A stretch of DNA of 35,874 nucleotides, taken from NCBI GenBank assembly GCA_014805015.1, contig JAAUYQ010000049.1:1-35874 (forward strand), written 5' to 3'. Of the stretch, positions 4,901 to 35,874 are shown one piece after another. The position numbers were made by a program, and so were the translations under genes. Position 1 is the first letter of the stretch. Each line of letters starts with the position of its first letter. Under the pieces are notes generated by a model. The model did no database searches, had not been told where the DNA came from, and worked only from the letters and a program-made list of their open reading frames with translations. This DNA comes from Clostridia bacterium. Lineage in GTDB: Bacteria > Bacillota > Clostridia > Christensenellales > Christensenellaceae.

Positions 4901-6520
4901 ACTGATCACGTCCTTGCCGTCCGCATCCTTCAGCGTGAATGTCAGCGTCGTGCCATCTGCCTGCGCTCCCGGCCACTCGGCGGCCGGCTTGCCGTCAATC
5001 GTCCATACAGGCATCGTTCCGTGCGGGACCCCATCCGGCAGCACAGCCGTGACGCGGACGGTGCTGCCTTTGACAATCTCCGTTTCAGCACTGTCGGTAT
5101 TGACGGCGCTGAGGGACGGAGCCTGGTACAGAACAGCCGAGAAGACCGCCATGTCGCTTGCGATGGTGCTGCCGCTCTTATCGAGGATGAACACCTGCAC
5201 TTCATAGGTGCCGTCTTCACTGACCGGCAGCTGAGTCTCCATTTTGCCGTCTGCGTCCGTCCGCTTCTGGCTGTTCACAAGCCATTCGGCGGTGCATCCG
5301 TCCGGCCACGTCTGATAAATGCCGCCCTCTTCGGGGACAATATCCGATGCTGTCAGCGTGATCGTGTCACCCACCATGCAGCGGTCATCCGCAAGCGGCT
5401 GGCCCTTGGCATCGCGGACCTGAATCTCCACATTGTATCCGGTCGCCTCTGTAACAGAGATGAGCGCTGTGCCCGTAATCTGAATCACTTTGTCATCTTC
5501 GCCCATCGTGACTGTGCAGGTAACGTTGTAGTCACCCTCGTCCGCAATCTGAATGGACTGCAGGTCGAGGCTCAGGCCGGATGCTTTCGATGCTGCGTCC
5601 TGCAAAGCCGTGAGGCTTGCACCGGTCGGCCCGGAAACGGACCACTTCACCTCCGGTTTTCCTGCCGGCCATACCGGCGATCCATCCGACCACGATGCTT
5701 CGATCAGCGGTCCGTTGTCACCCTCTTTGCGGGCAATCGGCTGCGTAAGCTCAAGCGCCGTTCCGAGCAGGTTAAAGTCTGCAGATGCCAGAAGCGGGGC
5801 CTCAAAGCTCTCGTCGTCTGGATCGAGCGGCCCCCCGTAGACAGAAGCTGTATACACGGCTCTCTGTCCGGCTTCCGGCGCTGTTTGCACCGGCAGGCTG
5901 AGGCCGTCTTCGCCGCTCCCGTCTTCGGCATCCGGGAGTTCTTCGCCGTTCAGCGTCCAGACTGCCGGATATGGCGTTCCGGCTTCATCGACCGGAGCAA
6001 GCCCGTTCAGCCAGGACGCTTCGAGCGTCACCGCCTTGCCCGCTGGGACGCTCGCTGGGTCATTCTGCGTGCTGGCCGGCATTGCATGCAGCTTTGCCTC
6101 CGTGCCGGACACGGTAAACGCGGCGTACTTCGTGGACGACCCGTCTGTCGCCGTGCAGATATACTCTGCCGGACTGCCGGGAACCGGCACGATCAGGGCT
6201 GCTGCAGATGCGCTTCCTGCCGGGACGCTTTTCAGCGCCTCAACGGCTTCGCCGTCCGCTGTCCAGGTGTAGGTCCAGTCTCCGCTCTCTTCTGCCGCCG
6301 GCACAGCCAGCACCGCATAGGATCCGGCTGCCCAGGCAGGGTTCTCTGAAGGCGACTCCTTGGCGGCCGTTTCGGTTTCTGCCCAGCCGTCCGCTGTAAG
6401 TCTCAGCGGAACAGGTTCCGGGCTGCTGCCGGACGCGTCCTCCGCCAGGACCGGGACTGCCATGGACAGCAGAAAGACGGCTGCTGTCAGGATGGATAAT
6501 GTTCTTCTGAATTTCTTCAT
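1979..6520 (-). CDS. Secreted protein with Ig-like repeats, Ser/Ala/Pro linker and dockerin-like C-terminus
   Basis: This 1513-residue protein begins with a typical signal peptide (KKFRR, a hydrophobic core, and cleavage near VLAED). Residues about 60-1180 are Ig-like or PKD-like units. The clearest tandem copies, about 750-1180, share AG-x2-VTV-x-C-S, a central Y-x-W-x-VNG and FTP-x3-GTY. Residues about 1190-1350 are a Ser/Ala/Pro-rich linker. The last 65 residues look like a type I dockerin: a degenerate loop (GDVLGTGIMNIAQIVRAA) and a clear calcium-type loop (ADFNGNGFVDISDLVRMA). Dockerins bind cohesins on scaffold or surface proteins. No sorting signal or catalytic domain is seen. It is the last of three secreted-protein genes on this strand. 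A role in surface attachment or mating contact is inference. Confidence 0.75.
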   Translation of the reverse strand: MKKFRRTLSILTAAVFLLSMAVPVLAEDASGSSPEPVPLRLTADGWAETETAAKESPSENPAWAAGSYAVLAVPAAEESGDWTYTWTADGEAVEALKSVPAGSASAAALIVPVPGSPAEYICTATDGSSTKYAAFTVSGTEAKLHAMPASTQNDPASVPAGKAVTLEASWLNGLAPVDEAGTPYPAVWTLNGEELPDAEDGSGEDGLSLPVQTAPEAGQRAVYTASVYGGPLDPDDESFEAPLLASADFNLLGTALELTQPIARKEGDNGPLIEASWSDGSPVWPAGKPEVKWSVSGPTGASLTALQDAASKASGLSLDLQSIQIADEGDYNVTCTVTMGEDDKVIQITGTALISVTEATGYNVEIQVRDAKGQPLADDRCMVGDTITLTASDIVPEEGGIYQTWPDGCTAEWLVNSQKRTDADGKMETQLPVSEDGTYEVQVFILDKSGSTIASDMAVFSAVLYQAPSLSAVNTDSAETEIVKGSTVRVTAVLPDGVPHGTMPVWTIDGKPAAEWPGAQADGTTLTFTLKDADGKDVISPVPVEAYLVLPQQDYRISRSGGITVVPIDKNSPVVTVELPEQVPSLGQTITAKATVNTPVAGTLQWGVAVDGQQVNDWKSTGDTCTFQVLKAAPYTVSAWFTNDAGGSVSNVGTATFTPTRLPAPIVTADVTPIAGTTITYTVPACSVDGAKAVWTVSGINGEPVISADSLSCAFTVPASTYTVTCSYVLTDITGATYDLSQAAVLTVPVCDYRVLLESRTRTPIVGRPVTVDCISAGTTSIPSGAEYRWTVNGQAVRASGASLQFTPDKAGTYVVAVTVANDGTEICKAELRLTADILYSAALSYSPNAPVAGSPVTVTCSAFDGSFPDGVSYAWKVDGRTQDSKTAEMTFTPAQGGTVTVAVSVMDKGTEITSAQTQIVVARRDMNYAVTLSAEPQNPQAGQEITVKAESSGADRLPAGAIYQWTVNDEDQSTISDTLRFTPQEDGTYSIICTVFESSSDNIPAAMAQLTVNVGSSTHYALSVSASTTNPEIGQPVEVVAVPTGDTLPDDAVIQWSVNGEPQDQTGDLFTFVANVPGSYEVAASVMQDGDILVSGSITLTVAGSTAVYDAQLSFTPAEPQAGESVTVTCSAPEGTTPYPEGTTYVWEINGVEAEGNGNMLIFIPDAAGTVDVTVYVVSDTVRIASDGISIEVDGSSEPGPSDSPEPSGSPSASASPSSSPSASVSPSSSPSSTASAQPSSSASASASASASASASASVTASASPSVNPSAQPSGSASASARPSASASVSASASASASASAVPSGSASASTAPSAVPSSSQSAQPSASPSGEPSAQPSASASPSDDPGQVNPIQPIPSAPVQVYVTESLSVEGPVLAGVPVSTEDTVYRVAAMRRWFNVPEGASYQVLRATGQPAVPTDPIATGMHVVVTAQDGTVLIDTTVVVMGDVLGTGIMNIAQIVRAAQDLNGTRALTGPYLAAADFNGNGFVDISDLVRMAWILTDATGEPIVRRG
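2483..2936 (-). repeat. Ser/Ala/Pro-rich low-complexity coding repeat
   Basis: This stretch encodes a linker of SAS, SPS and QPS units with short GC-rich near-repeats such as GCACTTGCGCTGGCACTC. It is inside the dockerin-like protein gene and separates the Ig-like part from the C-terminal domain. It should be prone to slippage and length variation. Confidence 0.7.
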
Positions 6521-6552
6521 GCGCGTTCGTTTCTCCTTTCATGCGCGTTCGT
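6518..6552 (-). repeat. Direct repeat duplicating the start-codon region
   Basis: CATGCGCGTTCGT occurs at 6518-6530 and again at 6540-6552. On the minus strand each copy ends with an ATG. The inner copy is the start of the 1513-residue protein. The outer ATG, 22 bases upstream and out of frame, precedes a GGAG that then serves the inner start with a longer-than-usual spacer of about 12 bases. Confidence 0.5.
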
Positions 6553-6663
6553 CGTTTCTGCTGCCTCTCGTCAATGTTTCTGCTTGCGCATCTTTAACCT
6601 CCAACTGGTGAGTTCCCCAGAATCTCAAGTGATTCTGCGCACAGGACCTTGCTGAAAGTCCCC

Positions 6664-6692
6664 TGCGCAGGACCACGCAGTCAGTCCTGCAT
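6664..6692 (-). repeat. Repeated hairpin unit between secreted-protein genes
   Basis: GCAGGAC (6667-6673) and GTCCTGC (6684-6690) form a perfect 7-base stem. The unit TGCGCAGGACC...TCCTGCAT is also found at 1890-1921. Both copies sit about 60-70 bases downstream of the stop codon of a large secreted-protein gene. A smaller inverted repeat, AGAATC/GATTCT (6619-6636), lies nearby. Function is unknown; regulation or mRNA 3' end protection are options. Confidence 0.4.
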
Positions 6693-6704
6693 TCTGCCGG
6701 CAGC

Positions 6705-6733
6705 AAAAAAGGAGCCGCATTCCTGGCAGCTCC
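6705..6733 (-). terminator. Intrinsic terminator of the 765-residue secreted-protein gene
   Basis: On the minus strand GGAGC (6733-6729) pairs with GCTCC (6715-6711), followed directly by TTTTTT (6710-6705). It lies 27 bases after the stop codon of the BspA-repeat protein. The same stem sequence followed by T6 recurs at 13051-13082. Confidence 0.75.
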
Positions 6734-6759
6734 CCCTCGCTTATCGGCGTTTGTTCCTT

Positions 6760-9057
6760 CTATTTCACAGCAATGTCCAGCGAAGCCTGCAGCTTGTGGC
6801 CGCTGTTCTCGTTCGTGTTTGCTCCCTGCAGCTTAAACGATGCGCTCTCGCCGCTGGCTGCTGTCACGCGGTAGCTGTAGACAATCTCACTGCCGGTTTC
6901 ATGACCGACAAGGATGATCTGCTTCTCGCCCGACATGTCGAACGTACCGGTTGCCTCGTGACCGACATATTCAAGGCCGGATGTCTTAATCCAGCCGTCT
7001 ATCCCTTCTGTGGGCGAATAGACAAGGACTTTAACGATGTCCCCGCTCTTCGCTTCTCTTGGACCACTCACATACAGACCCGAGTCCGGGATCTCTGCAT
7101 CCGGGTCCGTCTGCACTTCGAGCGTCTGGCGGCGGAACGGCTCCGTACCGCTATCGATCTTCAGCTGGTCGCCGGTGATGCGGTACCGGATGTAATACTG
7201 GCCGCCTGCCATTTTCTTATCCGGTGTCACTTTGAGGCTGACCCCGGCCGTGCCCGAACCGTCCTTACCGGCTGTGAACGTCTCAGAGGCAGATGCGCCG
7301 GCTGCAGTGTGCGTTTTCGCGTCCATCAGGTCGGCTGTGAGCGTGTAGGTGCCTTCGTCAAGGCCTGTATAGCTTACAGACGACGGAAGCACGGTTTCCC
7401 TGCCGGTCAGAAGCACGCGGCCTGTGCCGTTTTCAAGGCCGCCCCTGCCGGTGAGGATCTTCGCTTTCTGGTCCGGATCCTGGTACGGCATTGGGTACTT
7501 TTCCGGACGGACGAACATGGTTTCGTCCTTCGCGCTGTAGTACTGCGCGCCCTGTCCGTCACCGATTTCGTCCACGCTGTACTTCACGTAGATTTCCTGG
7601 TCCGTGTACTCTTCCGGCAGATGCAGCGTAAAGAAGAAGCGCTTCACTGCCCGGCCATTTCTGATATCGCTGCCGGAAACATATGCGTCGGAGCGGTATA
7701 CGCAGCCGAATCCGTCTGATGCAGTGCCGTATTTGCCCTGTACGTCTGCAGTAACGCGGTATTCTCTGCCCTCTTCCGCCTCGAAGGTTACCTGCACAGG
7801 CATGCCGAAATAGGCATTTGCCTGCAGCTTCGGCTGCGCGCAGGCAAGTCCGGTTTCCTCTTCAATGATCCGGAAGCTGCGCTCAGAGGTCTCTGTCTCC
7901 GGCTCCGGCGCCGGCGTCACGGTCAGCACTTCGTCCGAGCGGTCTGTGCGGCTCAGCAGATCACCATTCAGCCACATCTCATAGCGCAGGAAATACTCGT
8001 TTCCAGCTTCGTCCCCTGCCGGGATGTACTGGAAGATAAGTTCATCTCTCTGCACATAATGGTTCAGCACAATGGTTTTGCCGACGTCGCCGTACGCGTC
8101 CTGCACGTTCACGGTCCGGCCGTCACCGAGCCTCTTCATCAGCAGCGCCTTGAAGATGTAGTCCTTATCGTCCATCGGCAGTTTGCTGTAGCCGAACACA
8201 ATGCGGATCTTGCTGGTCTGCTCCGCCGGCATCTCGCGCGCTGCGCCCGATGACAGGCCTGTGTAGTGTTCGTCAAGGGCCGGCTGCTCGCCCTGCGGCT
8301 GCTCCGTGTCCGTGCTGTCGATCACAGCATCCGCATCCAGGCTGTAGGAGATGTCATCCTGCTTTTCCTGGGCCATGATGCTCTGCGAGTTTTCCTGCTG
8401 CAGCTGTTCACTGCTCTCGTCCGGATCGCTTTCAAAAGATTCGGCCGGCTCGGCTGACCCAGAAGCAGTCTCTTCCGGCCTGGATTCATCCGGCTCAGAA
8501 ACGGATTCTGACTCTTCCATCTCTTCTTCCTGCCGCGCATACGGCGAAGCGGATTGTTCCGCGCTCATTCGCGCAGCGCTCTTCTCCGGCCTCGTCACAA
8601 GGCTCAGAGATCCATCCGTGCAGCGCAGAACGCCGCCGGCCGTGCCGTTATACATGGCGGCCCACTCGGCAAGCGTGCCGTCAAAGCGGATCTCGCCAAA
8701 GGTGCTCTTTGCAAAGGCATCCTCGTCAATGGTGCCGATGCTGGCGGGAAGCTCAAGCACATCCACGTCCCAGTCTTCAAAGGCATAGGGGCCTATGGCC
8801 TTCACTTCTGCTCCCTGCACCGTCTCCGGCACCGTGACTTCGCCGGCTGTCCGGATGCCGGTCACGGTTGCTGCGCCGTCCCGGATCTCGTAGCACACTC
8901 CGTGAAGAATTAAAGTGTCTGCCTGGGATTGCACGAGCGCTGCTCCCGCAGACGCATTCGGCGGCGGCGATTCCTTGGCAAGTGCCGGCGCCATGCAGCC
9001 GAGCATGAGGGCGCCGGCGCACAGGGTTCCTGTAAGCCGTCTGGCTAAATGTTTCAA
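6760..9057 (-). CDS. Secreted protein with BspA-like leucine-rich repeat and VaFE-like domain
   Basis: The protein has 765 residues. An N-terminal signal peptide (KHLARRLTGTL, hydrophobic core, PALAKE) is followed at about 50-145 by a BspA/LRR_5-type repeat unit: IGPYAFEDW, LELPASIGTIDEDAF, then IRFDGTLAEWAAMY. An acidic, Ser/Glu-rich low-complexity stretch follows at about 165-265. The rest is beta-rich, and near residue 555 carries a VaFE-like unit (VSYTGLDEGTYTLTADLMD). No wall-sorting signal or transmembrane end is visible, so it is probably released or held non-covalently. The start is TTG with AGGAGGT about 11 bases upstream. BspA-like repeats are common in surface adhesins. Adhesion is the likely role, not proven. 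Confidence 0.7.
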   Translation of the reverse strand: MKHLARRLTGTLCAGALMLGCMAPALAKESPPPNASAGAALVQSQADTLILHGVCYEIRDGAATVTGIRTAGEVTVPETVQGAEVKAIGPYAFEDWDVDVLELPASIGTIDEDAFAKSTFGEIRFDGTLAEWAAMYNGTAGGVLRCTDGSLSLVTRPEKSAARMSAEQSASPYARQEEEMEESESVSEPDESRPEETASGSAEPAESFESDPDESSEQLQQENSQSIMAQEKQDDISYSLDADAVIDSTDTEQPQGEQPALDEHYTGLSSGAAREMPAEQTSKIRIVFGYSKLPMDDKDYIFKALLMKRLGDGRTVNVQDAYGDVGKTIVLNHYVQRDELIFQYIPAGDEAGNEYFLRYEMWLNGDLLSRTDRSDEVLTVTPAPEPETETSERSFRIIEEETGLACAQPKLQANAYFGMPVQVTFEAEEGREYRVTADVQGKYGTASDGFGCVYRSDAYVSGSDIRNGRAVKRFFFTLHLPEEYTDQEIYVKYSVDEIGDGQGAQYYSAKDETMFVRPEKYPMPYQDPDQKAKILTGRGGLENGTGRVLLTGRETVLPSSVSYTGLDEGTYTLTADLMDAKTHTAAGASASETFTAGKDGSGTAGVSLKVTPDKKMAGGQYYIRYRITGDQLKIDSGTEPFRRQTLEVQTDPDAEIPDSGLYVSGPREAKSGDIVKVLVYSPTEGIDGWIKTSGLEYVGHEATGTFDMSGEKQIILVGHETGSEIVYSYRVTAASGESASFKLQGANTNENSGHKLQASLDIAVK

Positions 9058-9087
9058 GATTACTGTTTACCTCCTTACTCTGGGTCT

Positions 9088-9104
9088 GCCCGGCCGCGCC
9101 GGGC
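9088..9104 (-). promoter_or_regulatory. GC hairpin just upstream of a ribosome binding site
   Basis: GCCCGGC (9088-9094) and GCCGGGC (9098-9104) form a perfect 7-base stem with a 3-base loop. It lies about 15 bases upstream of the AGGAGGT that serves the TTG start at 9057. No T-tract follows it. It might affect translation or stabilise the transcript. Confidence 0.35.
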
Positions 9105-9161
9105 CTGAACGAGCCGCAATCAGAAAGCGGCCCGCGAAAACCGCAGACTTCTGCAGCTTTC

Positions 9162-9180
9162 GCAGACCGCCTTGGTCTGC
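9162..9180 (-). terminator. Hairpin after the wall-anchored protein gene
   Basis: GCAGACC (9162-9168) and GGTCTGC (9174-9180) form a perfect 7-base stem with a 5-base loop, 26 bases after the stop codon of the sortase-anchored protein. A T-tract is lacking on the minus strand, so it may be a weak terminator or RNA 3' stabiliser. Confidence 0.35.
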
Positions 9181-9205
9181 GCAGAAATGTATCTTCTGTA
9201 CGTGT

Positions 9206-12200
9206 CTACCTTGTTCTGAGTTCCCGGCGGCGGAGGATCAGCACGGCCGCCGCTGCGGCTGCGCCCCCTGCACAGATCCATATGTACAGCGCAAGGTTTG
9301 TATCGTCGCCTGTCTTGGCAATCGGCCCCTTGTCCGCTTCTGGGTACGTCTGACCGGTACTGGCCCAGCCGCTCCCGGACCCGGACGTGCTGCCATAGCT
9401 GGTACTGCCGCCTGTGGTTCCGCCCGACGTGCTGCCGCCTGTGGTTCCGCCGCCTGTTGTCCCGGCGGACTGCGACGCTGAAGGGACCGGCGAAGGAGTC
9501 GGCGTCACTGCGGAGACAGTGAGTCTCTGCGCACTGTCGTCCGTGCTGGTCTTGCCGGTCAGCACATCGCCTTTGTACAGTTCGGCCTGCACGATCAGCT
9601 GCCGTCCGGCAAGTCCGCTGGTATCAATCGGAATATTGACATCCACGCTGCCGGTACCGGTAGAGCTTGAAATCGCAGCCCTTGCCGTGATCTGCTGTCC
9701 GTTCACTGTCAGGACCTGCATGGTCCCTGCATCCAGTACGTTCACGACGGCGCTGTAGGCTACATTCGGCTCAACGCCTTCGTACGTGATCGTCTCCTTA
9801 ATCAGAGCGCCGCTCTGGCAGGGCAGCGTCTTGGTCCCGGCAGCCGATGATGCACTCCCCGTGAGTTTCAGTGTCACAATGGACAGGTTCGACGTGCCCT
9901 CGGAGGGCTGCGCCGAGCGGGTGATGACCTTGCCGTCTCCGGCAAGCAGCGTCAGCATGGCTCCTGCCGGCTGCGCTTCGAGATCCCGTGCGTCAAAGCT
10001 GAACGTAACCGGTACGCTGCCGTTTACGAGCTTTGAGCCCGCATCCCGCGTAAGTCTGACCGTGCCGGCATCCTGCGCCTCTTCGTTCGGCGAGAACGTC
10101 ATTACGGCCTCAATCGCTTTGCCGTCCGCGGCCAGGATGGCCTCTCCCGTCTTCGGGTTCATCAGCTTCGCCTGGATCGTATAGCTCTCGCCGGACTCAA
10201 GACTGTAGAAGTGCGCCAGGAGTGTTGCACTGGTCTGACTGGATGCACCCGGCACCGCAAAGACTGTCTCTTCCACAAAATCGCCCGCTTCAATGCGAGG
10301 CGTGCTCTCTGCCGGCTCTGCAGTGGCGCTCGGTGCGCTGCTTGGCCTGGTGCTCGGCTTCACGCTCTGTGAAGCGCTCGCGCCTGCACTCGGCCGGCTG
10401 CTCGCTGCCGCAGATGCTGAAGCAGACGGACTGGTGCTCGGCACCTGGCTCGGAGCCAGCGACGGCTGCGTGCCTGGCAGGCCAGAAGCAGAGGCAGAAG
10501 CTGAGGCAGACGGCTTCGGATGCATCGGGTCATAACCCGGATCCTCTGCGCCGCACCGGCTGCAAACGCCGTCAACGTATCTGTGACCCAGCGCGTCCAC
10601 TTCATTGTCTATATATGCTGTACCGCAGTGGATGCAGGAGAACAGCGTATAGCCCTTGCGCGTGCAGTCTGCCGGCACGAGGATGTGGTCGAACGAGTGA
10701 TCTTTCGTAAATACCTCGTCTTCGCTCAGTTCTGTCTGCGCGTCCGCATCCTGGTACAGCTTGCCGCAGTTCTCACAGCGGAAATGGGCGATGTTGCCCG
10801 CCCGGTCTTCCCGCGGCGGCACCACATCCACGGCTGTCAGATTGTGACCAATGGCCGGGACCACGGTGTCAATATATGTGTCACCGCAGTGCCAGCAGAT
10901 GTGTGCCGTGTAACCGTCCGCATCACATGTCGGGGGCGTTTCGTACGCTTCGTAGCTGTGGCCGGTCTTCTCAATCTGCACGTCCTCCAACGCCAGCGGG
11001 CTTGTCCCCTGGGCATCTGAGAACCGCCCGTCACAGCGTTTGCAGTGGTAGTGGTCGTGCCAGCCGAAGTCTTCGTGGGAAGCCGCCGTTTCCGCTATCT
11101 TCTCCATCTGGTGTCCGAGTGCCGGCCCCGTCTCGGATGCCGTCTCGTGCAGGCACACGGTGCAGGTCCGCAACATCCGCGCCGGTTCTGTGCAGGTTGC
11201 CGCTGTGCTGGTCTGCGTGAACCGGTGCGCATGTGCCCTGATGATAATGTCGTCGTCCGCCAGCGGGTTCACGGCAGACTCTGACTGATACTTGCCGCCG
11301 CACTTCTCGCAGATGCCGTAGGCAAGGTGACCGTCTTCCGTCTCGGTGGCTTCCTTGTACGGAACCATCGACATTTCGTGTCCGACCGGATCGGTCCAGT
11401 CAGACAGGAAGACCTTGCTGTCCGGGTCACCGATGGGAATGTTAATCGTGTAGCCTGGTGCGGTACATGTCGGCTCTACGACCTCCTGCTCATACTGACC
11501 CTTGGTAGGAAGAAGCAGCACGTCGTTTATGCTGATCTGCTGCATGCCGCGGCTGTCCGCAAACAGCGCGCCGCATCTGGTGCATTCCCAGTACTCGATA
11601 TTGCCCGGTTCCTCGGCAGTAGGTTCCACCCGGTCATAGTGCGTGAGGCTGTGCTGCGTGAAAGTGAAGGCCGGAGACGTCTGCGTGTCGCCGCAGTTCC
11701 GGCATGTCCTGACAAGCTGCTGCAGCTGTCCGCAGGCTGTGTCCACTTTCTGTTCTTCGCCGTAATCATGGCCGGTCGCCGGGATCGTGAGTTCAGCGAG
11801 CGCCAGTTCATCGTGGCCGTTGCTGTCTGCAAAGTACCCGCCGCAACCGCCGCAGTAGTACACCGCCTTACGGCCGTCCGTTTCGCACGTAACTGGAAGC
11901 TCCGCCAGGTACTTGATCTGGTGATCGCCGTGTCCGTCGCGTTTCCAGTCAACCTGTGCGTGGACTGTCTTGCTGTCAATGTCCTGCGCTCCGCTGAGGT
12001 CAAACGTCACGGTCTTTGAACCGGATCCTTTCGAGTCTGTGTCTGAAGTCCTGTCTTCCGGAGGCTCAAAATCCCCCATCGAGAGAAGCGTCAGACTGGC
12101 CGGCTCTGCACCCTCTATGGCATTACCGTCCTGGTCCACGAGCGTCAGCGTCAGACTGTACTCGCCGTTTCCCTTGTGGTGACCGTTCTTGTCATCCGGT

Positions 12201-12847
12201 CCTGTCTGGTTATGCACGGACACGTACAGGTCCCGGTATGACAGCGGCAGCGTTACTTCCGTGTCGCCTGAAGACAGCCTTTTGCTGCCGGTCGTGAACA
12301 CCGGGTCCACAATTTCCGTGATGCTGTTTAGGTGGCTCTCGTCCGTCTGCAGGTCCACGTCCTTGCAGACCTCCTGCATGGTGTCACCGTCAAGAACCCG
12401 GAACCACACGGTAACAAAATGGTCCTCGGGATTAAGGTCACTGCCGTCAAACTCGAACATAACGTCCTGCGAAACGCCCGAGCCTGCTGATACGAACGGC
12501 TGATAGGCAACAATCTTGCTGCCTCCGGATGACTGGTCCTTGACCGGCTCCGGTCCGTCGTCGCCGTCCATGTTCATCAGAGTGCCTTCAAGGATGTACT
12601 CCCTGCCGACCTCAAGGCCGTCGTAGACAGCACCTGCAAGGATGTTCAGATTATCCCCGCGGTACAGTTTCTCCGGCAGGATCCACTTAGCGTCCACGTC
12701 CGGCGTTATTTCATCGTATACGGCTGTGTCACCTGGTCCTGTATCGGCTGCGGCCAGTGCCGTACTGCTGCTGAGCGGCAGCGCACACGCCGCCGCCAGC
12801 GTCAGCCCCATGGCAAAGGCCCCCAGCCGCCTGAATCTGTGTTTCAC
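9206..12847 (-). CDS. Sortase-anchored surface protein with VaFE-like domains and Cys-x2-Cys modules
   Basis: The protein has 1213 residues. A signal peptide (RRLGAFAMG core, ALAAAD cleavage region) leads to an N-terminal VaFE-like unit (YDGLEVGREYILEGTLMN). Residues about 330-780 hold repeated modules with paired CxxC motifs (CGGCGG, CRNCGD, CEKCGG, CWHCGD, CENCGK, CSRCGAED) alternating with GHxY or GHxL. A Ser/Ala/Pro linker follows near 780-840, then two more VaFE-like units (one with ITYEGVEPNVAY) and a Gly/Thr/Ser-rich wall-spanning segment. The C-terminus has IAKTGD, a hydrophobic helix and a RRRELRTR tail: a sortase signal in which I replaces L and A replaces the P-x pair's usual first residue. 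The GTG start overlaps the TGA of a short leader ORF. It is the first gene of the three-gene secreted set. Confidence 0.75.
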   Translation of the reverse strand: MKHRFRRLGAFAMGLTLAAACALPLSSSTALAAADTGPGDTAVYDEITPDVDAKWILPEKLYRGDNLNILAGAVYDGLEVGREYILEGTLMNMDGDDGPEPVKDQSSGGSKIVAYQPFVSAGSGVSQDVMFEFDGSDLNPEDHFVTVWFRVLDGDTMQEVCKDVDLQTDESHLNSITEIVDPVFTTGSKRLSSGDTEVTLPLSYRDLYVSVHNQTGPDDKNGHHKGNGEYSLTLTLVDQDGNAIEGAEPASLTLLSMGDFEPPEDRTSDTDSKGSGSKTVTFDLSGAQDIDSKTVHAQVDWKRDGHGDHQIKYLAELPVTCETDGRKAVYYCGGCGGYFADSNGHDELALAELTIPATGHDYGEEQKVDTACGQLQQLVRTCRNCGDTQTSPAFTFTQHSLTHYDRVEPTAEEPGNIEYWECTRCGALFADSRGMQQISINDVLLLPTKGQYEQEVVEPTCTAPGYTINIPIGDPDSKVFLSDWTDPVGHEMSMVPYKEATETEDGHLAYGICEKCGGKYQSESAVNPLADDDIIIRAHAHRFTQTSTAATCTEPARMLRTCTVCLHETASETGPALGHQMEKIAETAASHEDFGWHDHYHCKRCDGRFSDAQGTSPLALEDVQIEKTGHSYEAYETPPTCDADGYTAHICWHCGDTYIDTVVPAIGHNLTAVDVVPPREDRAGNIAHFRCENCGKLYQDADAQTELSEDEVFTKDHSFDHILVPADCTRKGYTLFSCIHCGTAYIDNEVDALGHRYVDGVCSRCGAEDPGYDPMHPKPSASASASASGLPGTQPSLAPSQVPSTSPSASASAAASSRPSAGASASQSVKPSTRPSSAPSATAEPAESTPRIEAGDFVEETVFAVPGASSQTSATLLAHFYSLESGESYTIQAKLMNPKTGEAILAADGKAIEAVMTFSPNEEAQDAGTVRLTRDAGSKLVNGSVPVTFSFDARDLEAQPAGAMLTLLAGDGKVITRSAQPSEGTSNLSIVTLKLTGSASSAAGTKTLPCQSGALIKETITYEGVEPNVAYSAVVNVLDAGTMQVLTVNGQQITARAAISSSTGTGSVDVNIPIDTSGLAGRQLIVQAELYKGDVLTGKTSTDDSAQRLTVSAVTPTPSPVPSASQSAGTTGGGTTGGSTSGGTTGGSTSYGSTSGSGSGWASTGQTYPEADKGPIAKTGDDTNLALYIWICAGGAAAAAAVLILRRRELRTR
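10303..10523 (-). repeat. Ser/Ala/Pro-rich coding linker
   Basis: This low-complexity part of the wall-anchored protein gene has the same SAS/KPS/QPS character as the linker at 2483-2936. The shared composition suggests that the two secreted proteins exchanged or share linker modules. Confidence 0.5.
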
Positions 12848-24656: not shown

Positions 24657-24716
24657 GTAGGGTAAGCACCCAGCGCCTTACCGGGTTGCCCCGGCAGGTT
24701 TCCATGTACTCCCCTC

Positions 24717-24753
24717 CAAACCGGACGTACATGTCTCGATGTATCCGGCTTTC
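24717..24753 (-). ncRNA. Domain V of the virB4 group II intron
   Basis: The hairpin has an AGC triad at its 5' side (AAAGCCGGAT), the opposite strand GTCCGGTTT, a two-base AC bulge, and a GAGA tip. The base pair closing the tip is C opposite C here, whereas the sister intron has a proper G-C pair. Confidence 0.8.
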
Positions 24754-24763
24754 CAGATATTAC

Positions 24764-26590
24764 CTAGTCAAGTCTTCCAGCATGCAAGTCCCGGTGGCAT
24801 TTGGGGCAGAGCGCCATGGTCTTGCGGTTCCGCTCGATCATTTTACGCTCCCACGCCTTTTTGCCCTTGAGGTCCTTGAGTTTTCTTACGTGATGTATTT
24901 CGATTTCTTCGCTTTCAGCGCCGCACCACTCACATTTCCCAGCCTGCAGCCTGTCGAGAAGACTGGTCCGCGCCAGGGTCCACAATACCTTGTCTTCCTG
25001 GTACGGATCCTTCTTTGACACGGCAAACGGGTCGTGCGCGAAGCCCTGGTTGTAGAAGACGGCCTTTTTGTGCTGGCCTTTTGCAGTCTCATACTGGACC
25101 GCAAAGTCCTTGCCGTCCCGGTACTTCTTTACGATCTTCTTGATCGTTGTGCGGTACTTAGCCGCAAACGTCTTATACATGCTGTACTTCATCACGTAGC
25201 GGAATTTGGACAGCACGCTCGCATTGTTTGCCAGCCGATAATAGTTATACAGCTCGCGAATTTCTGCGTTATAGCGGCTCAGGATCTCCAAGTCATCCAA
25301 GTGCAGCAGATACGATCTTTTGGTGGGTTCATAGACTTCTTTGCCTTCCACCATTTTGATCTTCAGTGCGCCGTAACCCTGCAGCTTCTTCACCCATACT
25401 TCATGCGGTATGTACAGCGCAATCGTGCCGGAGCGGGGCCGCTTGCGGACTCCCAGTGCGTTCTTCTCCGTGTTCTGGCTGTACGTGGTTGTTACGGCGT
25501 ATCCCAGGAAATGCGCGAAGTCCCGTCCGTGCGTGATCAGCGTCTTTTCTTCGCTCATGTCCAGTTTGAGAGTCTGTTTCAGAAACTCTTCCACAGTCCT
25601 CTTTACGTATTCCGCGTCCTTGCGGCTTCCAATGACGCCAATAAGAAAGTCATCGGCGTAGCGCACATACTGAACGCGTTTGTAGTTCGGGTCCGCTGCG
25701 TCTTTGACGGGCAGTTTAGAGCGCAGCTGCCTGAGCTGCTTTATCTCTTTGATCCGCGCCTTGATCTCACTCGCATTGATCTGGTCGCGGTCATCGTCCA
25801 AAGCCTTGCTCAGCTTACGGATCTTCCGGTTATACGCCTGGTATTCCGGGTTGTCTCTTCTGACAGTGCCGCAGTCGTATTCTTTCTTGAAGTCCTGCAT
25901 AAACTTGTCAAGTTCGTGCAGATAGATGTTGGAAAGAACCGGACTGATAACAGAACCCTGCGGCGTTCCCGAATAGGTGTTGTGGTACTCCCACTGTTCC
26001 ATGTATCCGGCTTTGAGAAACTTCCAAAGCAGATCAATGAACCTTCCGTCGTCTATTCGCTTGCTTACAAGATTCGCAAGCACATGGTGGTCAATATTGT
26101 CGAAGCACCCTTTGATGTCTCCCTCTATGAACCACTTCGTGCTTTTGAAGCCCTTCTGCATTTGACTCAGGGCTGTATGGCAGCTTCTGTCAGGGCGGAA
26201 GCCATGGGAAGTATCCAGAAACGTCGGTTCCCATATGGCTTCCAGGATCATCCGCATTACTTCCTGCACGAGCTTGTCTTCAAATGCAGGAATGCCTATC
26301 GGCCTCGTTTCTCCGTTTTTCTTGGGAATGTAGGTCCGTCTGGCAGGGGCCGGATGATAGCTGTAGTTTTTCATGGACTCGATCAGGTCCATGATGCGTT
26401 TTTCGTTCATCCCGTCGATGGTCTTGTCATCGGTGCCGGGGGTCAGATTCCCCTGCCTGCCACTGATCCTCGCGTAGGCCAGCAGGTAGAACCTTGGGTT
26501 GTAGAAATTCCGGTACAGGCGCTTGAACCTGTAGCTTTCATCGCATGCTTTTGAACTCAAATGGTTCAAAACTTCATTTGGATCTCTCAT
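24764..26590 (-). CDS. ltrA: Group II intron reverse transcriptase/maturase with HNH endonuclease
   Basis: The protein has 609 residues from the ATG at 26590, chosen by homology to the sister intron protein, which starts at the same point; GGAGG lies very close upstream. The reverse transcriptase domain (about 80-400) shows GIPAFEDKLVQE, the TSHGFRPDRSCH region, GDIKGCFDNIDHH, SGTPQGSVISPVLSN and the catalytic YVRYADDF. A maturase (X) region follows. The C-terminal HNH domain has CEWCG, EIHHVRKLKDLKG and CPKCHRDLH. Together these promote splicing and retrohoming by target-primed reverse transcription. The open frame continues to 26821, but that part lies in intron RNA structure. It looks intact and functional. 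Confidence 0.9.
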   Translation of the reverse strand: MRDPNEVLNHLSSKACDESYRFKRLYRNFYNPRFYLLAYARISGRQGNLTPGTDDKTIDGMNEKRIMDLIESMKNYSYHPAPARRTYIPKKNGETRPIGIPAFEDKLVQEVMRMILEAIWEPTFLDTSHGFRPDRSCHTALSQMQKGFKSTKWFIEGDIKGCFDNIDHHVLANLVSKRIDDGRFIDLLWKFLKAGYMEQWEYHNTYSGTPQGSVISPVLSNIYLHELDKFMQDFKKEYDCGTVRRDNPEYQAYNRKIRKLSKALDDDRDQINASEIKARIKEIKQLRQLRSKLPVKDAADPNYKRVQYVRYADDFLIGVIGSRKDAEYVKRTVEEFLKQTLKLDMSEEKTLITHGRDFAHFLGYAVTTTYSQNTEKNALGVRKRPRSGTIALYIPHEVWVKKLQGYGALKIKMVEGKEVYEPTKRSYLLHLDDLEILSRYNAEIRELYNYYRLANNASVLSKFRYVMKYSMYKTFAAKYRTTIKKIVKKYRDGKDFAVQYETAKGQHKKAVFYNQGFAHDPFAVSKKDPYQEDKVLWTLARTSLLDRLQAGKCEWCGAESEEIEIHHVRKLKDLKGKKAWERKMIERNRKTMALCPKCHRDLHAGRLD

Positions 26591-26855
26591 GTCCTCCGCA
26601 ATGTATCCATCTTCTGTTTTGTTAATATCCTGCCGCCCTTCGCCATGCGGCCGGCTTTCCCGACCCCGGACTACTATGGCGGCTCCGTTGCCATGCCAGA
26701 TATTCAGTACCTCTGCACATAGCCGTTTCCGGCTTTCCGGTTTAGGCAATCCTCGGTTAGAGCCATGAGAAAAAGCGTGCTGTGATGTCGGACCGGACGT
26801 TCGCCCGTTACTGCGCGCCACAGTTGGAACACTGCAGACATTCCTGCAAGCAACC

Positions 26856-26861
26856 TGGGGC
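26856..26861 (-). other. Candidate EBS1 of the virB4 intron
   Basis: On the minus strand this reads GCCCCA, complementary to the last six bases of the 5' exon (TGGGGT) with one G-T wobble. It lies 318 bases from the intron start, matching the EBS1 candidate of the sister intron (325 bases). Confidence 0.5.
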
Positions 26862-27179
26862 TTTTGCTGCTTGCTGCAGTGTGCAGCACGTTAGTCATCG
26901 TGTACTGCTGGCTACCGTAGACCTCCTTGGACTGTCCTTCAGGCAGTTTAGCTTTGATCCTTGTTCACAGCGTTACGTCTTGCTGTTCAGTCGCCGAATG
27001 GATGACTCTTCTGACTTACAGCTTTATATCGGCATGCTATGGTCCCCTTCCGGGTTTCCCCTCCGGGTAAGCCGACTGACGATAAGGGGAGTTTCCTCAT
27101 GAATGTCTTTCCTTACTGCCGTGCTGATGGCAGATTTCTCATGCTCCGTACGGCCCATTCAGGCCGCTTCCGAGCGCAC

Positions 27180-31970: not shown

Positions 31971-32456
31971 TCAGGAGCCGGAGCGGTCGAAGTTGATAAG
32001 GTTGTCGATGTCGTCGCCGGTAACAGCCTCAATGACGAATCTGACCGAAACCGCAATGGCACCGCCAACGATCGCCATGATTGCTTTGCTCTTCTGCGAA
32101 TCGTCATGGCTCTGCATGGAGATCGCAAGCGACAGAACACCAAATGCAATGAAGCAGATGCCGACGCCCATCAGCAGGTTCAGAAGGAAATTCGTCGTGT
32201 TCTTTACAACTTCAGTAGCGTCGGGTGTTCCGCCGCCGCCGCCGCTTGCACCGGCTGTGACAGCTGCCGTCATCGTACCGGAGAAAGCACCGGTCATAGC
32301 TGTAATCAGCTTGCCTTTGCGCCAGTTTTCGGCTGCCTCGTCCGGGATAGCTGCGTCGAGCACAGCCTGGGCCTGTTCTGCCTTGCGCCGGAAGAAACCG
32401 CCATGCAGCTTCTTCTCGCGCTTCTCAAGCGTGGATCTTGTCAGTTTGGGGATCAT
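31971..32456 (-). CDS. Maff2/VirB2-like small membrane protein
   Basis: The protein has 161 residues. A charged N-terminus (KLTRSTLEKREKKLHGGFF) is followed by a Gly-rich hinge (GASGGGGG) and two transmembrane helices (FLLNLLMGVGICFIAFGVLSLAI and AIMAIVGGAIAVSVRFVIEAV). This fits the Maff2/TrbC-type protein found between virD4 and the TrbL gene in Gram-positive elements and thought to be VirB2-like. Its ATG overlaps the virD4 stop as ATGA, with AGGAG just upstream. The N-terminal extension is longer than in most Maff2 proteins. Confidence 0.75.
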   Translation of the reverse strand: MIPKLTRSTLEKREKKLHGGFFRRKAEQAQAVLDAAIPDEAAENWRKGKLITAMTGAFSGTMTAAVTAGASGGGGGTPDATEVVKNTTNFLLNLLMGVGICFIAFGVLSLAISMQSHDDSQKSKAIMAIVGGAIAVSVRFVIEAVTGDDIDNLINFDRSGS

Positions 32457-32899
32457 TCACTTCTCCTTTCTCCCTGGTTCTGGTTATGTGAAGACTGCAG
32501 GTTTGCCGAAAGCTGGTTTGCCTGCGATCTTGTTAAACCGCCCTGGTAGACTTCGCCGTCACTTTCCAGCGGATACTCGAACATCAGCATTTCCTGCTGC
32601 ATGCGCTCAAGCTCCGCTTTCTCCGCGTCATTTATTCGGTTGAAATTCTGCGTAAATGTGGGCGCGCCGCCCATGGCGATTTTTTTGAAGTTAGGGTGCT
32701 TGGTGATGTTGTACTTGTCGTCGATGACGCCGTACTCACCGCGCACCATGACAATGCACTTGTCGTCCGGAAGTCCGCGCACCTCGCCTTTGGTCATGAG
32801 GTCGCGGCCCGATACTTGCTCGTTCTCGGAAAAACTGCTTCCGCTTTTGCCGCCGGTACGTATCTTGATGGTTTCTTTATCGAGCGCTTCACTCAGGTA
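32453..32899 (-). CDS. virD4: VirD4 coupling protein, last exon
   Basis: This exon encodes the C-terminal 148 residues of VirD4. It begins YLSEALDKETIKI, which directly continues NEAFTWK from the exon at 35419-35600, the normal family order (T-x-K-Y-x-S-x-L-x-K-E-T). It then carries GRDLMTKGEVRGLPDDKCIVMVRGEYGVIDDKY, typical of the VirD4/TraG C-terminus. The ATG seen farther upstream at 33004 lies in intron domain V and is not a real start. It ends with ATGA overlap into the pilin-like gene. Confidence 0.85.
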   Translation of the reverse strand, partial: YLSEALDKETIKIRTGGKSGSSFSENEQVSGRDLMTKGEVRGLPDDKCIVMVRGEYGVIDDKYNITKHPNFKKIAMGGAPTFTQNFNRINDAEKAELERMQQEMLMFEYPLESDGEVYQGGLTRSQANQLSANLQSSHNQNQGERRSE

Positions 32900-32959
32900 G
32901 TAGGGTAAGTACCCGGCGCCATTTCCGGGTTGCTCCGGCTGGTTTCCATGCACTCCCCC

Positions 32960-32997
32960 CCAAACCGTACGTACACGTCTCCGTGTATACGGCTTTC
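32960..32997 (-). ncRNA. Domain V of the virD4 group II intron
   Basis: The hairpin has an AGC triad (AAAGCCGTAT), the opposite strand GTACGGTTT, an AC bulge, and an upper stem ACACG/CGTGT closed by a GAGA tetraloop. All pairs are intact. Confidence 0.85.
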
Positions 32998-33004
32998 CAG
33001 ACAT

Positions 33005-34822
33005 TCAGTCGAGTTTTCCTGCATGTAATTTGTCGTGGCACTCTCGGCACAAGGCGATAGTTTTACGGTTTCGCTCGATCATGCGGCGTTCCCATGCCTT
33101 TTTGCCTTTGAGGTCCTTGAGTTTGTGGACGTGGTGCATTTCGATGTCATCTGTTTCTTTTCCGCACCATTCACACTTGTGTGCTTTAAGCCGATCTATC
33201 AGGCTTGTACTCGTGTCGTGCAGCACAGGTGTTCTGTCCGGGTTCTGGTCATTGATCCTGGTATTGCGGACAAAGCCCTTGTTGTAGAACACTGCTGTGT
33301 TCTTCTTTCCGGTTTTCGTCTCGTACTGCACCGCAAAATCTTTACCCATTCGGTATTTGGCCTTGATTTTGCTGATAGTGGTTCTGTATTTTCCGGCAAA
33401 TGTCTTGTACATGCTGTACTCCATGACGTAAGCAAACTTGCTGAGCACGCTGACGTTATTTGCCAGTCTGTAGTAGTTGTACAGTCCCCGGATTTCCGAG
33501 TTGTATTGACTCAGAATTTCCAGGTCGTCGCGGACTTGGAGTGCAGGCCGGTGTACCGGCTCGTATACTTCTTTTCCGTTGACATACTTAATCTTGAGTG
33601 CGCCATACCCGAGGAGTCTTTTGACCCACGCGCTTTTTGGAACCTGCAGCAGCACGTTCCCAGAGAAGGCGCGCTTGGCTACGCCATCTTTGTTCTTTCT
33701 GATGCCATTGTCGTTCCGCGTTGAAACTTCGTAGCCCAGAAATCTTGCGAAGTCGTGCCCATGAGTGATGAGCGTTTTTTCATCACTCATTACGAGGTGC
33801 AGTTGCTCCTTGAGGAACATCCCAATTTCGCTCTTGATTTTGCGGGCATCCTCTTTGGATCCGATGACTCCGATTAGGAAGTCATCTGCGTAGCGCACAT
33901 AGTTCAGCCGTCTGAAGTTTGGATCGTATGGATCCTGCGAGGGGAGCGCATTTCTCCGATTGGTGAGATCTGCGATTTCGTCCCGCTTTGCCTTTATTTC
34001 GGCAGGTGTCCAGACGGCTTCGTTGGTTTTCAGTTCTTTTTGCGCCGCTCTCACGGCGCGGGCCAGCAAGTCATATTCATGGTTATTGGCTCGTCTCTTG
34101 CCTGACCAGAACTCTTCTGCGGTGTTAGTCACAAATTTGTCCAATTCGTGCAGGTAGATGTTAGCCAGTACCGGGCTCACAATTGAACCCTGTGGTGTGC
34201 CAGAATACGTCCCGACTCGCCGCCAGTCATCCATGTACCCTGCCCTCAGCATTTTCCACAGCAGATCAATGAATTTTTCGTCATCAATCCGGCGTCTTAC
34301 GAGGTCAATGAGCACGTGGTGGTCGATGTTATCGAAGCAGCCCTTGATATCGCCCTCGATGAACCACTTGGTTCCTTTGAAGAGCTTTGTGACTTGCGCA
34401 AGAGCGATATGGCAGCTTCTTTCCGGCCTAAAGCCATGAGAGCAGTCGAGAAACAGCGGTTCCCAGATGGCTTCAAGAATCATCCGAACGATTTCCTGTA
34501 CCATCTTGTCTTCGAACCCTGGCAGACCCAGTGTCCTTGTTTTTCCGTTGTCCTTTGGTATGACCACCCTGCGCGCTGGCTTCGGTCGGTAACTTAGGTC
34601 TCGCATGTTTGCGATCAGCTTTTCTATACGCTTCTCGCTCATGCCGTCGATTGTGAGTCCGTCTGCGCCGGACGTCATGGCCCCGGCATTCTTGCTCAGA
34701 TGACTGTAAGCAAGCAGGTAGAACTCAGGATTGTAGAGATATCTGTACAGTCTGCTGTACTTGTAGCTCGGGTTACACGCATGTTTCCCCAACTGTTCCA
34801 AAACATACTCAGGATTTTGCAT
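33005..34822 (-). CDS. ltrA: Group II intron reverse transcriptase/maturase with HNH endonuclease
   Basis: The protein has 605 residues. The ATG at 34822 follows GGGGAGGAG. It has the same layout as the virB4 intron protein: GLPGFEDKMVQE, CSHGFRPERSCH, GDIKGCFDNIDHH, SGTPQGSIVSPVLAN, the active site YVRYADDF, a maturase region, and HNH motifs CEWCG, EMHHVHKLKDLKG and CRECHDKLH. The two proteins are clearly homologous along their whole length yet differ at many positions, so they are not recent copies. It should drive splicing of its own intron and retrohoming. Confidence 0.9.
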   Translation of the reverse strand: MQNPEYVLEQLGKHACNPSYKYSRLYRYLYNPEFYLLAYSHLSKNAGAMTSGADGLTIDGMSEKRIEKLIANMRDLSYRPKPARRVVIPKDNGKTRTLGLPGFEDKMVQEIVRMILEAIWEPLFLDCSHGFRPERSCHIALAQVTKLFKGTKWFIEGDIKGCFDNIDHHVLIDLVRRRIDDEKFIDLLWKMLRAGYMDDWRRVGTYSGTPQGSIVSPVLANIYLHELDKFVTNTAEEFWSGKRRANNHEYDLLARAVRAAQKELKTNEAVWTPAEIKAKRDEIADLTNRRNALPSQDPYDPNFRRLNYVRYADDFLIGVIGSKEDARKIKSEIGMFLKEQLHLVMSDEKTLITHGHDFARFLGYEVSTRNDNGIRKNKDGVAKRAFSGNVLLQVPKSAWVKRLLGYGALKIKYVNGKEVYEPVHRPALQVRDDLEILSQYNSEIRGLYNYYRLANNVSVLSKFAYVMEYSMYKTFAGKYRTTISKIKAKYRMGKDFAVQYETKTGKKNTAVFYNKGFVRNTRINDQNPDRTPVLHDTSTSLIDRLKAHKCEWCGKETDDIEMHHVHKLKDLKGKKAWERRMIERNRKTIALCRECHDKLHAGKLD

Positions 34823-35087
34823 GGCGCGTTACGCTCCTCCCCTTTTCTGTACTGGTCCAATGTCCTGCCGCCCTTCGCCATGCAGCCGGCTTTCCCGGCC
34901 TCGGACTACTACGACGGCTCCGTTGCCATGCTGGGTATTCAACGCCGACGCGTATAGCCGTTTGGCGGCATCCCAGTTTAGGCAATCTCCGTTTAGCTGG
35001 TGAGAATAGCTTGTTGCGGTGTCGGATCGGATTTTCGTCCGTTACCACCCACTGTGGTTGATTACTGCAGATGCAATGGACCGCGCG

Positions 35088-35093
35088 TGGAAA
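35088..35093 (-). other. Candidate EBS1 of the virD4 intron
   Basis: On the minus strand this reads TTTCCA, a perfect complement to the last six bases of the 5' exon (TGGAAA). It is 325 bases from the intron start, in the same surrounding sequence as the EBS1 candidate of the virB4 intron (flanked by CTGCAG-containing stems). Confidence 0.6.
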
Positions 35094-35418
35094 TATCGCG
35101 CTGCCCTGCAGTACACGGCGACAGTCACCTTTCGCCGTCAGCTTCACTAGACCCTCTTGGACTGTCCTTCAAGCAATTCAGCCTTGGTCCTCATCCGCAA
35201 CCTTTTATCTTGCCGTTCGGTCGCACGTGGTGACTCCGAGACTTACGGCTTTTCCGGCATGCTACCGTCCCCTTGCAGGTTTCCCCTCAGAGTGAGCCGG
35301 ATGATAATAAAGTGGGGCAGAGGCCCCGGTTGCATCTTTTCTTTACTGCCTTGCCAGGGCAGGATTCTCAGCCAGCCGCGGGCCTGTGCTGCTTGCGCAG
35401 CGGCCCTTGCGGACGCAC

Positions 35419-35600
35419 TTTCCACGTAAACGCCTCGTTTCCGCCAAGATAGATTAAAGAGTCGCAATTGCCTGCAATTGACTCCCAATCTTTCTCATAT
35501 AGCTTCTTCAGCTGTGTCATGTTCTGAAGAAAGATGTTGATGGATATTTCGTACTTCCGGCAGGTAGCCAGGACCTGCTCGAAGCTGTCTGGTACAGCAA
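35419..35600 (-). CDS. virD4: VirD4 coupling protein, internal exon
   Basis: The exon of 182 bases encodes about 61 residues from AVPDSFEQVLATCRKYEI through INIFLQNMTQLKKLYEKDW and NCDSLIYLGGNEAFTWK, the conserved core after Walker B of VirD4 ATPases, which pump relaxase-bound DNA into the channel. The family consensus before this point is DEFANVALPDEF. With one base from the missing upstream exon, the first codon here becomes V, giving NVAVPDSF. The apparent ATG at 35688 lies in intron sequence. Walker A and B are beyond the window. Confidence 0.85.
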
Positions 35601-35648
35601 ATAGCGATAGGTAAGCGTTTGATCTGATCTCCGGCTTTTCCCCCGCTC

Positions 35649-35684
35649 TACACCGTGCAAGCGCCTTTCGGCGCACACGGCGTG
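35649..35684 (-). ncRNA. Domain V-like hairpin of the third intron
   Basis: CCGTGT and GCACGG form the lower stem (with a T-G wobble), a TT bulge sits on the 3' side, and GCGCC/GGCGC closed by GAAA form the upper stem. The triad position reads CGC, a known alternative to AGC in group II introns. Confidence 0.65.
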
Positions 35685-35742
35685 CCATCGTCTGCAGGCT
35701 TATCGCCTGGGCGATGATCTCAGATGATGTGAAACAAAAAGA

Positions 35743-35874
35743 CTATTCGCGTTCAGTGCCGCCGGTACTCTTCCCGCTGCTCTTCCGCGATTTTTCGTAG
35801 GCTGCCCGTCCCTCCGGCGTGTAGGGCACATGATCGCGCTTCTTGTAGTGCGGCGCTTTGGTCTTGACGTATGC
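35743..35874 (-). CDS. C-terminal end of a protein encoded in the third intron (partial)
   Basis: Only the last 43 residues are in the window. They are strongly basic, with HYKKRDHVPYTPEGRAAYEK and a Lys/Ser/Gly tail ending TERE. The position just before domain V is where intron-encoded reverse transcriptases end. A basic C-terminus is compatible with a DNA-binding domain, but no HNH motif is visible. The identification as an intron-encoded protein is inference from position alone. Confidence 0.45.
   Translation of the reverse strand, partial: AYVKTKAPHYKKRDHVPYTPEGRAAYEKSRKSSGKSTGGTERE

Follow-up and report, generated by a model that had tools for sequence, protein, structure and literature searches.

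An intron-encoded protein without reverse transcriptase and endonuclease motifs in a three-intron virD4 gene of a Clostridia bacterium, and its possible role as a maturase

How can a conjugation gene continue to serve when it is broken by several group II introns, and what is the part of an intron-encoded protein (IEP) that appears to have lost the means of moving its own intron? Both questions are raised by virD4, the gene for a conjugative coupling protein, on contig JAAUYQ010000049.1 (C49) of the Clostridia bacterium assembly GCA_014805015.1 (2.70 Mb, 102 contigs). The window, which is the whole stretch of 35,874 nucleotides initially analysed, corresponds to C49 1-35874 and ends within this gene. 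The contig continues to 186,558, and an extension covering C49 35000-54999 (locus L012, in which L012 position plus 34999 gives the window coordinate) was analysed with it; the 875 bases of overlap are identical. Intron 1 lies in virB4 and introns 2, 3 and 4 lie in virD4, with the encoded proteins numbered accordingly.

The interrupted virD4 consists of four exons (892, 396, 182 and 447 nt) and three introns from two families, all on the minus strand. Beyond the window lie exon 1 (C49 40120..39229), intron 4 (C49 39228..38382, 847 nt, RF02004-type and devoid of an open reading frame (ORF)) and exon 2 (C49 38381..37986). Intron 3 occupies C49 37985..35601 (2385 nt), of which the last ~274 nt fall within the window at 35601..35874. 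Exon 3 (35419..35600) begins directly after the Walker B region and reads AVPDSF...NEAFTWK; it is followed by intron 2 (32900..35418, phase 0), a member of the other family with a 5' GUGCG and an RF00029 score of 61.7 bits, and by exon 4 (32453..32899, YLSEALDKETI..., including the stop codon). The joined exons form 1917 nt in a single frame with one stop, the junction phases being 1, 1 and 0, and the spliced product matches the NCBIfam model NF045973 (VirD4-like CD1115) with 409.8 bits against a cut-off of 250. Once spliced, virD4 is thus predicted to code for a 638-aa VirD4-like coupling protein of the CD1115 family.

The positions of the junctions are fixed by an intronless virD4 paralogue elsewhere in the same genome (contig C32, 588-2288, L068), which is 60% identical to the spliced frame and whose alignment is gap-free at each of the three junctions (MDA-K-SDL/MDA-T-SAL, DEFAN-V-AVP/DEFAN-V-GRP and FTWK-YLSE/FTWR-YLSE). 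At the intron 3 junction, 35601/35600, the spliced codon G|TT yields DEFAN-V-AVPDSF where the paralogue has DEFAN-V-GRPMNF, with no indel. The initial annotation, made from the window, had placed an intron at the Walker B region of virD4 with its junction at 35601, leaving a 182-base exon between two unlike introns, and had foretold, farther to the right, a 5' exon that closes with DEFAN and a single G; exon 2 ends in just this way, and the gap-free alignment with the paralogue settles both the junction and the short exon. What had not been foreseen is the further ORF-less intron upstream, which makes intron 3 the middle one of three. A twintron, in which one intron is nested in another, was considered for introns 2 and 3 and rejected, since the 182-nt coding exon separates them. 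The Walker A motif of this VirD4 reads GGSGTRKST, with Arg for Gly before Lys, where other relatives have GGSGxGKT; decay as its cause was also rejected, because the intronless paralogue carries the same motif, which is a trait of the subfamily.

Introns 3 and 4 are both recognisable as group II ribozymes, from Rfam matches on the minus strand (gathering scores 40 bits for RF00029, covering domains V and VI (DV/DVI), and 34.5 bits for RF02004, covering D1D4-5) and from their folds. For intron 3 these matches are DV/DVI at 35601..35685 (49.8 bits) and a D1D4-5 core at C49 37717-37918 (119 bits); for intron 4 they lie at C49 38382-38466 (54.8 bits) and C49 38963-39170 (176.2 bits). A DV with a catalytic triad and a DVI with a bulged A are present in each. 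The 3' part of intron 3 folds (z = -2.69) into the DV hairpin, with the CGC triad noted in the window from the start and a GAAA loop, and a DVI helix whose bulged A lies 8 nt from the 3' end. Intron 4, which contains no protein gene, begins with GUGCGAC and ends with CUAUCACUAU, and so fits the GUGYG...AY consensus (GUGCG...AU). The ends of intron 3 are GGGCGAU and CUAUCGCUAU (GGGCG...AU), and depart from it at position 2, so that the expectation of a GTGCG-like 5' end was right as to similarity and wrong as to that base. The intron domains sought upstream were found in the RF02004 core, and the assignment of intron 3 to a family other than that of introns 1 and 2 was borne out. To locate exon-binding sites (EBS) 1 and 2, 20 introns of the family were aligned and those columns taken in which each intron is complementary to its own exon; for introns 3 and 4 the combined EBS1 and EBS2 rank the intron's own site 1 of 1907 positions of the spliced virD4 in each case. 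Identity between the two introns is 58.7%, and the RNA tree joins them with a support of only 0.80 on long branches, data which bear on whether intron 4 arose from intron 3 by deletion.

A reverse transcriptase (RT) gene had also been expected to the right of the window. An RT-family gene is indeed there, coding for IEP3 (C49 37311..35743, minus strand, 522 aa, its C-terminal end lying in the window at 35743..35874), but its product has lost the catalytic and endonuclease motifs. IEP3 scores 44.5 bits against RVT_1; against the group II RT/maturase model it reaches 152.5 bits, where the cut-off is 300. Where relatives have DIDIKGFFDNV in motif A, IEP3 has SFKLQDVMKEI, without either aspartate; KGTPQGG of the PQG motif is replaced by KKDSxGGG, and YADD of the active-site box by YADS. 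There is no HNH domain, and the C-terminus stops before En. In the alignment the full-length relatives of IEP3 retain the motif A aspartates, PQG, YADD and HNH, and those that lack HNH (L031 and the first ORF of L032) are truncated reading frames. The losses are concentrated: conserved residues are retained at 34/50 positions in the fingers, 1/12 in motif A, 19/27 in RT3a-4, 17/25 in RT5-7, 10/13 in domain X, 5/7 in D and 2/30 in En, and the loss in motif A stands out from the rest of the protein (p = 5e-5). Given what is established about RT catalysis, the changes in motif A and YADD place it beyond reasonable doubt that IEP3 has lost reverse transcription. The motif A aspartates, an intact YADD box and the HNH endonuclease of the full-length relatives, all expected of a mobile intron, are missing from IEP3; what is found in IEP3 is the loss of RT motifs, the retention of domain X and a frame kept open under constraint, as would be expected of an RT-dead maturase. 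An AlphaFold model of IEP3 (mean pLDDT 69.9) has group II RT/maturase structures as its best matches, a result that lends weak support because the rows of its alignment are active relatives.

The constraint on IEP3 is evident in two ways. The reading frame has no stop over 522 codons although its branch in the tree is 2.0 changes/site, in comparison with 0.27 and 0.47 for its neighbours (4-7x longer); in neutral simulations of IEP3 the probability of no stop is already ~0.01 at 0.05 substitutions/site. In addition, 296 single N, read as polymorphic or uncertain calls, are scattered over the 20 kb of the extension, at L012 876-5780 and 14000-20000 with none between, the first of them one base past the end of the window. 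Those within genes favour the third codon position and so look like strain polymorphism. Counted by codon position, IEP3 has 5/6/24 (p = 2e-5) and exons 1-2 of virD4 have 8/4/35 (p = 1e-8), which argues against random masking, and the density of N is 1.3% across the ribozyme regions of introns 3 and 4 and 1.2% at codon positions 1 and 2, as against 6.2% at third positions. The open frame despite the long branch, together with the third-position bias, indicates that IEP3 is being kept, and the constraint on the exons of the interrupted virD4 is indirect evidence for splicing. IEP3 is read here as an RT-dead maturase retained for splicing.

On this basis the account that seems probable is one in which introns 2, 3 and 4 would be excised from the virD4 transcript to give the 638-aa coupling protein, with IEP3 serving as maturase only. 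Intron 3 would descend from a retrohoming element that homed to this site in virD4, its protein having lost reverse transcription and DNA cleavage while keeping the RNA-binding RT fold and domain X. Intron 2 would be spliced using its own IEP, and IEP3 would act in cis as the maturase of intron 3; intron 4 encodes no protein and so would probably use IEP3 in trans. An unspliced virD4 would block conjugation, so that selection would keep IEP3 even though mobility is gone. The broader proposition, that a bacterial intron lineage has turned splicing-only in one gene, where an immobile IEP3 assists both the intron encoding it and an ORF-less sibling, is evenly poised between acceptance and doubt.

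Several observations weigh against IEP3 as a retained maturase, and some of them are shared with the main rival, an unlikely scenario of decay in which intron 3 and IEP3 are dying, no full VirD4 is made from this gene, and conjugation proceeds through the type IV secretion system of C32 or has been lost. The RNA of intron 3 scores lowest in its family (D1D4-5 119 against 148-196; DV 49.8 against 52.5-65), and EBS1 forms only 4/6 pairs with its intron-binding site, IBS1; with the GGGCG end, these suggest that splicing of intron 3 may be weak or decaying. Pfam finds no maturase domain in IEP3, though the X core aligns, and the intronless virD4 on C32, which is accompanied there by an intronless virB4, could render the interrupted copy dispensable. 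Samples of between 18 and about 400 genomes, drawn at levels from family up to phylum, contained no RT-dead sibling of IEP3: none above 44% identity was seen in the family, order, class and phylum samples or in those families that include G154 and G170, the genomes with its closest relatives, none in genome and viral contigs, and none in plasmids and phages, where all matches were <60%. IEP3 is accordingly a single case so far. The long branch of IEP3 would also suit decay. It is harder to reconcile decay with an open frame of 522 codons, with the third-position bias of variants in both IEP3 and the virD4 exons, with intron RNA that has fewer variants than third positions, and with exons that are all in frame at precise junctions.

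Another explanation, rather improbable, is that introns 3 and 4 splice without IEP3, by themselves or with another protein, and that IEP3 is kept for some other role. Some ORF-less bacterial introns, such as C.te.I1, do self-splice (PMC4424553). Introns 1 and 2, which belong to the same element, also offer IEPs with intact motifs, but IEP1 and IEP2 stand on a far-off branch. Maturases are usually specific for their own type of intron, and the residues that IEP3 has retained lie in the fingers and in X, the regions responsible for binding intron RNA. That the multi-intron gene or the odd IEP3 might be an assembly chimera of strains or intron copies is very improbable indeed: the 296 N do betray mixed or uncertain calls, but the junctions and the EBS pairing are site-specific, the N sites follow codon structure, and the altered motif A and YADD contain none of them. 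The assembly moreover has only two introns of the RF02004 family, introns 3 and 4, and so holds no copy with which intron 3 could have collapsed.

The nearest relatives of IEP3 are the IEPs of G170 (L028) and G154 (L029), with tree support of 91/93. Their introns are inserted at the same virD4 codon as intron 3 (DEFGT|L... and DEFAN V|ALPEDF), and EBS2, CGAAU, is common to intron 3 and L029. Both proteins retain DIDIKGFFDN, YADD and HNH, which IEP3 does not. Judged by site and phylogeny, intron 3 belongs to a virD4 site-specific lineage in which the RT and endonuclease motifs of the other members are intact. Introns have targeted virD4 repeatedly in these elements. In G170 (C72, L028/L101) the gene apparently once held two RF02004-family introns, at TDPKG| and DEFAN|V, that are now one element with a fused IEP frame of 828 aa, the intervening exon being missing. 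In Enterococcus faecium (NZ_LR135359.1 10090-18616, L066) a virD4 between PcfB and Maff2 is interrupted at a different codon, after ...LAPFD, by an intact intron of the family, and the plasmid table carries no annotation for the fragments of the gene. Nearly all RF02004-family introns with a readable host frame are inserted in phase 1, at ~13 independent sites in different genes (loci L012, L014, L028-L030, L032-L035, L038, L056-L061 and L064), where chance would give one third; in this phase the host frame reaches a UAA six codons into the canonical 5' end. Nothing relevant on a phase bias among group II introns of bacteria turned up in a literature search.

The other intron family of the element is represented by introns 1 and 2. 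Intron 1 (24657..27179, minus strand, RF00029 51.9 bits) is of the same type as intron 2 and interrupts virB4 in phase 0, at a junction, ...LWG|FWKRCRKYGG, that agrees with the intronless virB4 paralogue on C32. IEP1 lies within an ORF at 24764-26821 (minus strand) inside intron 1, and IEP2 (33005-34822, minus strand, 605 aa) is an RT with YADD, maturase and HNH, matching RVT_1, Intron_maturas2 and AI2M-like_HNH in Pfam; the motifs of both are intact. Upstream of the tra genes, at C49 43337-44839 (L012 8338-9840, minus strand), there is an IscB-like protein with RRXRR (PF14239, 153 bits) and HNH. The minus strand of the window also encodes, at 1979-12847, three large putative surface proteins of 1513, 765 and 1213 aa whose linkers are rich in Ser/Ala/Pro; two of them have T-Q ester bond domains, one has Ig/PKD-like repeats, and all three are possibly cargo of the conjugative element.

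Parallels with known systems are instructive. A review of 2015 gives O.i.I2 as its one bacterial example of an intron whose IEP is RT-degenerate (PMC4424553); a later bacterial case was not found in the literature searched, which excluded most subscription papers. O.i.I2 resembles the present case in the loss of YADD and other RT motifs, the open frame, the presumed maturase function and residence in a cellular gene. It differs in being of the ML class, whereas intron 3 belongs to the RF02004/HNH family, lies in a conjugation gene it shares with an ORF-less sibling, and has lost the endonuclease as well. On the conjugative plasmid pAW63, host of B.th.I1 and B.th.I2, virD4 with an ORF-less intron is reported to be functional (PMC1196294; PMC9673590); that gene has one intron in place of three from two families, and B.th.I1 codes for a protein described as a reverse transcriptase/maturase, while the only protein of the same family here, IEP3, is RT-dead. 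Action in trans on ORF-less relatives is known in bacteria, and MatK of the trnK intron and the plant nMAT proteins have lost RT motifs, kept domain X and serve the splicing of more than one intron (PMC4424553). In this IEP3 would be like them, but they are organellar or nuclear, and MatK is unalignable in RT0-4 where IEP3 can be aligned along its length.

The locus is new in combining an IEP that is both RT-dead and endonuclease-less with two further introns in the same gene, one an ORF-less sibling of intron 3 and the other from a second family. The setting is compact: beside these elements, other species have intact relatives at this very codon, and a control within the same genome is provided by the C32 paralogue without introns. 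If the splicing-only reading of IEP3 is true, the protein would be a bacterial counterpart of MatK and a step towards trans-acting splicing factors. The passage from retroelement to splicing-only introns with a shared protein is central to the origin of spliceosomal introns, and bacterial intermediates along this path, of which the virD4 locus may be one, are nearly unknown.
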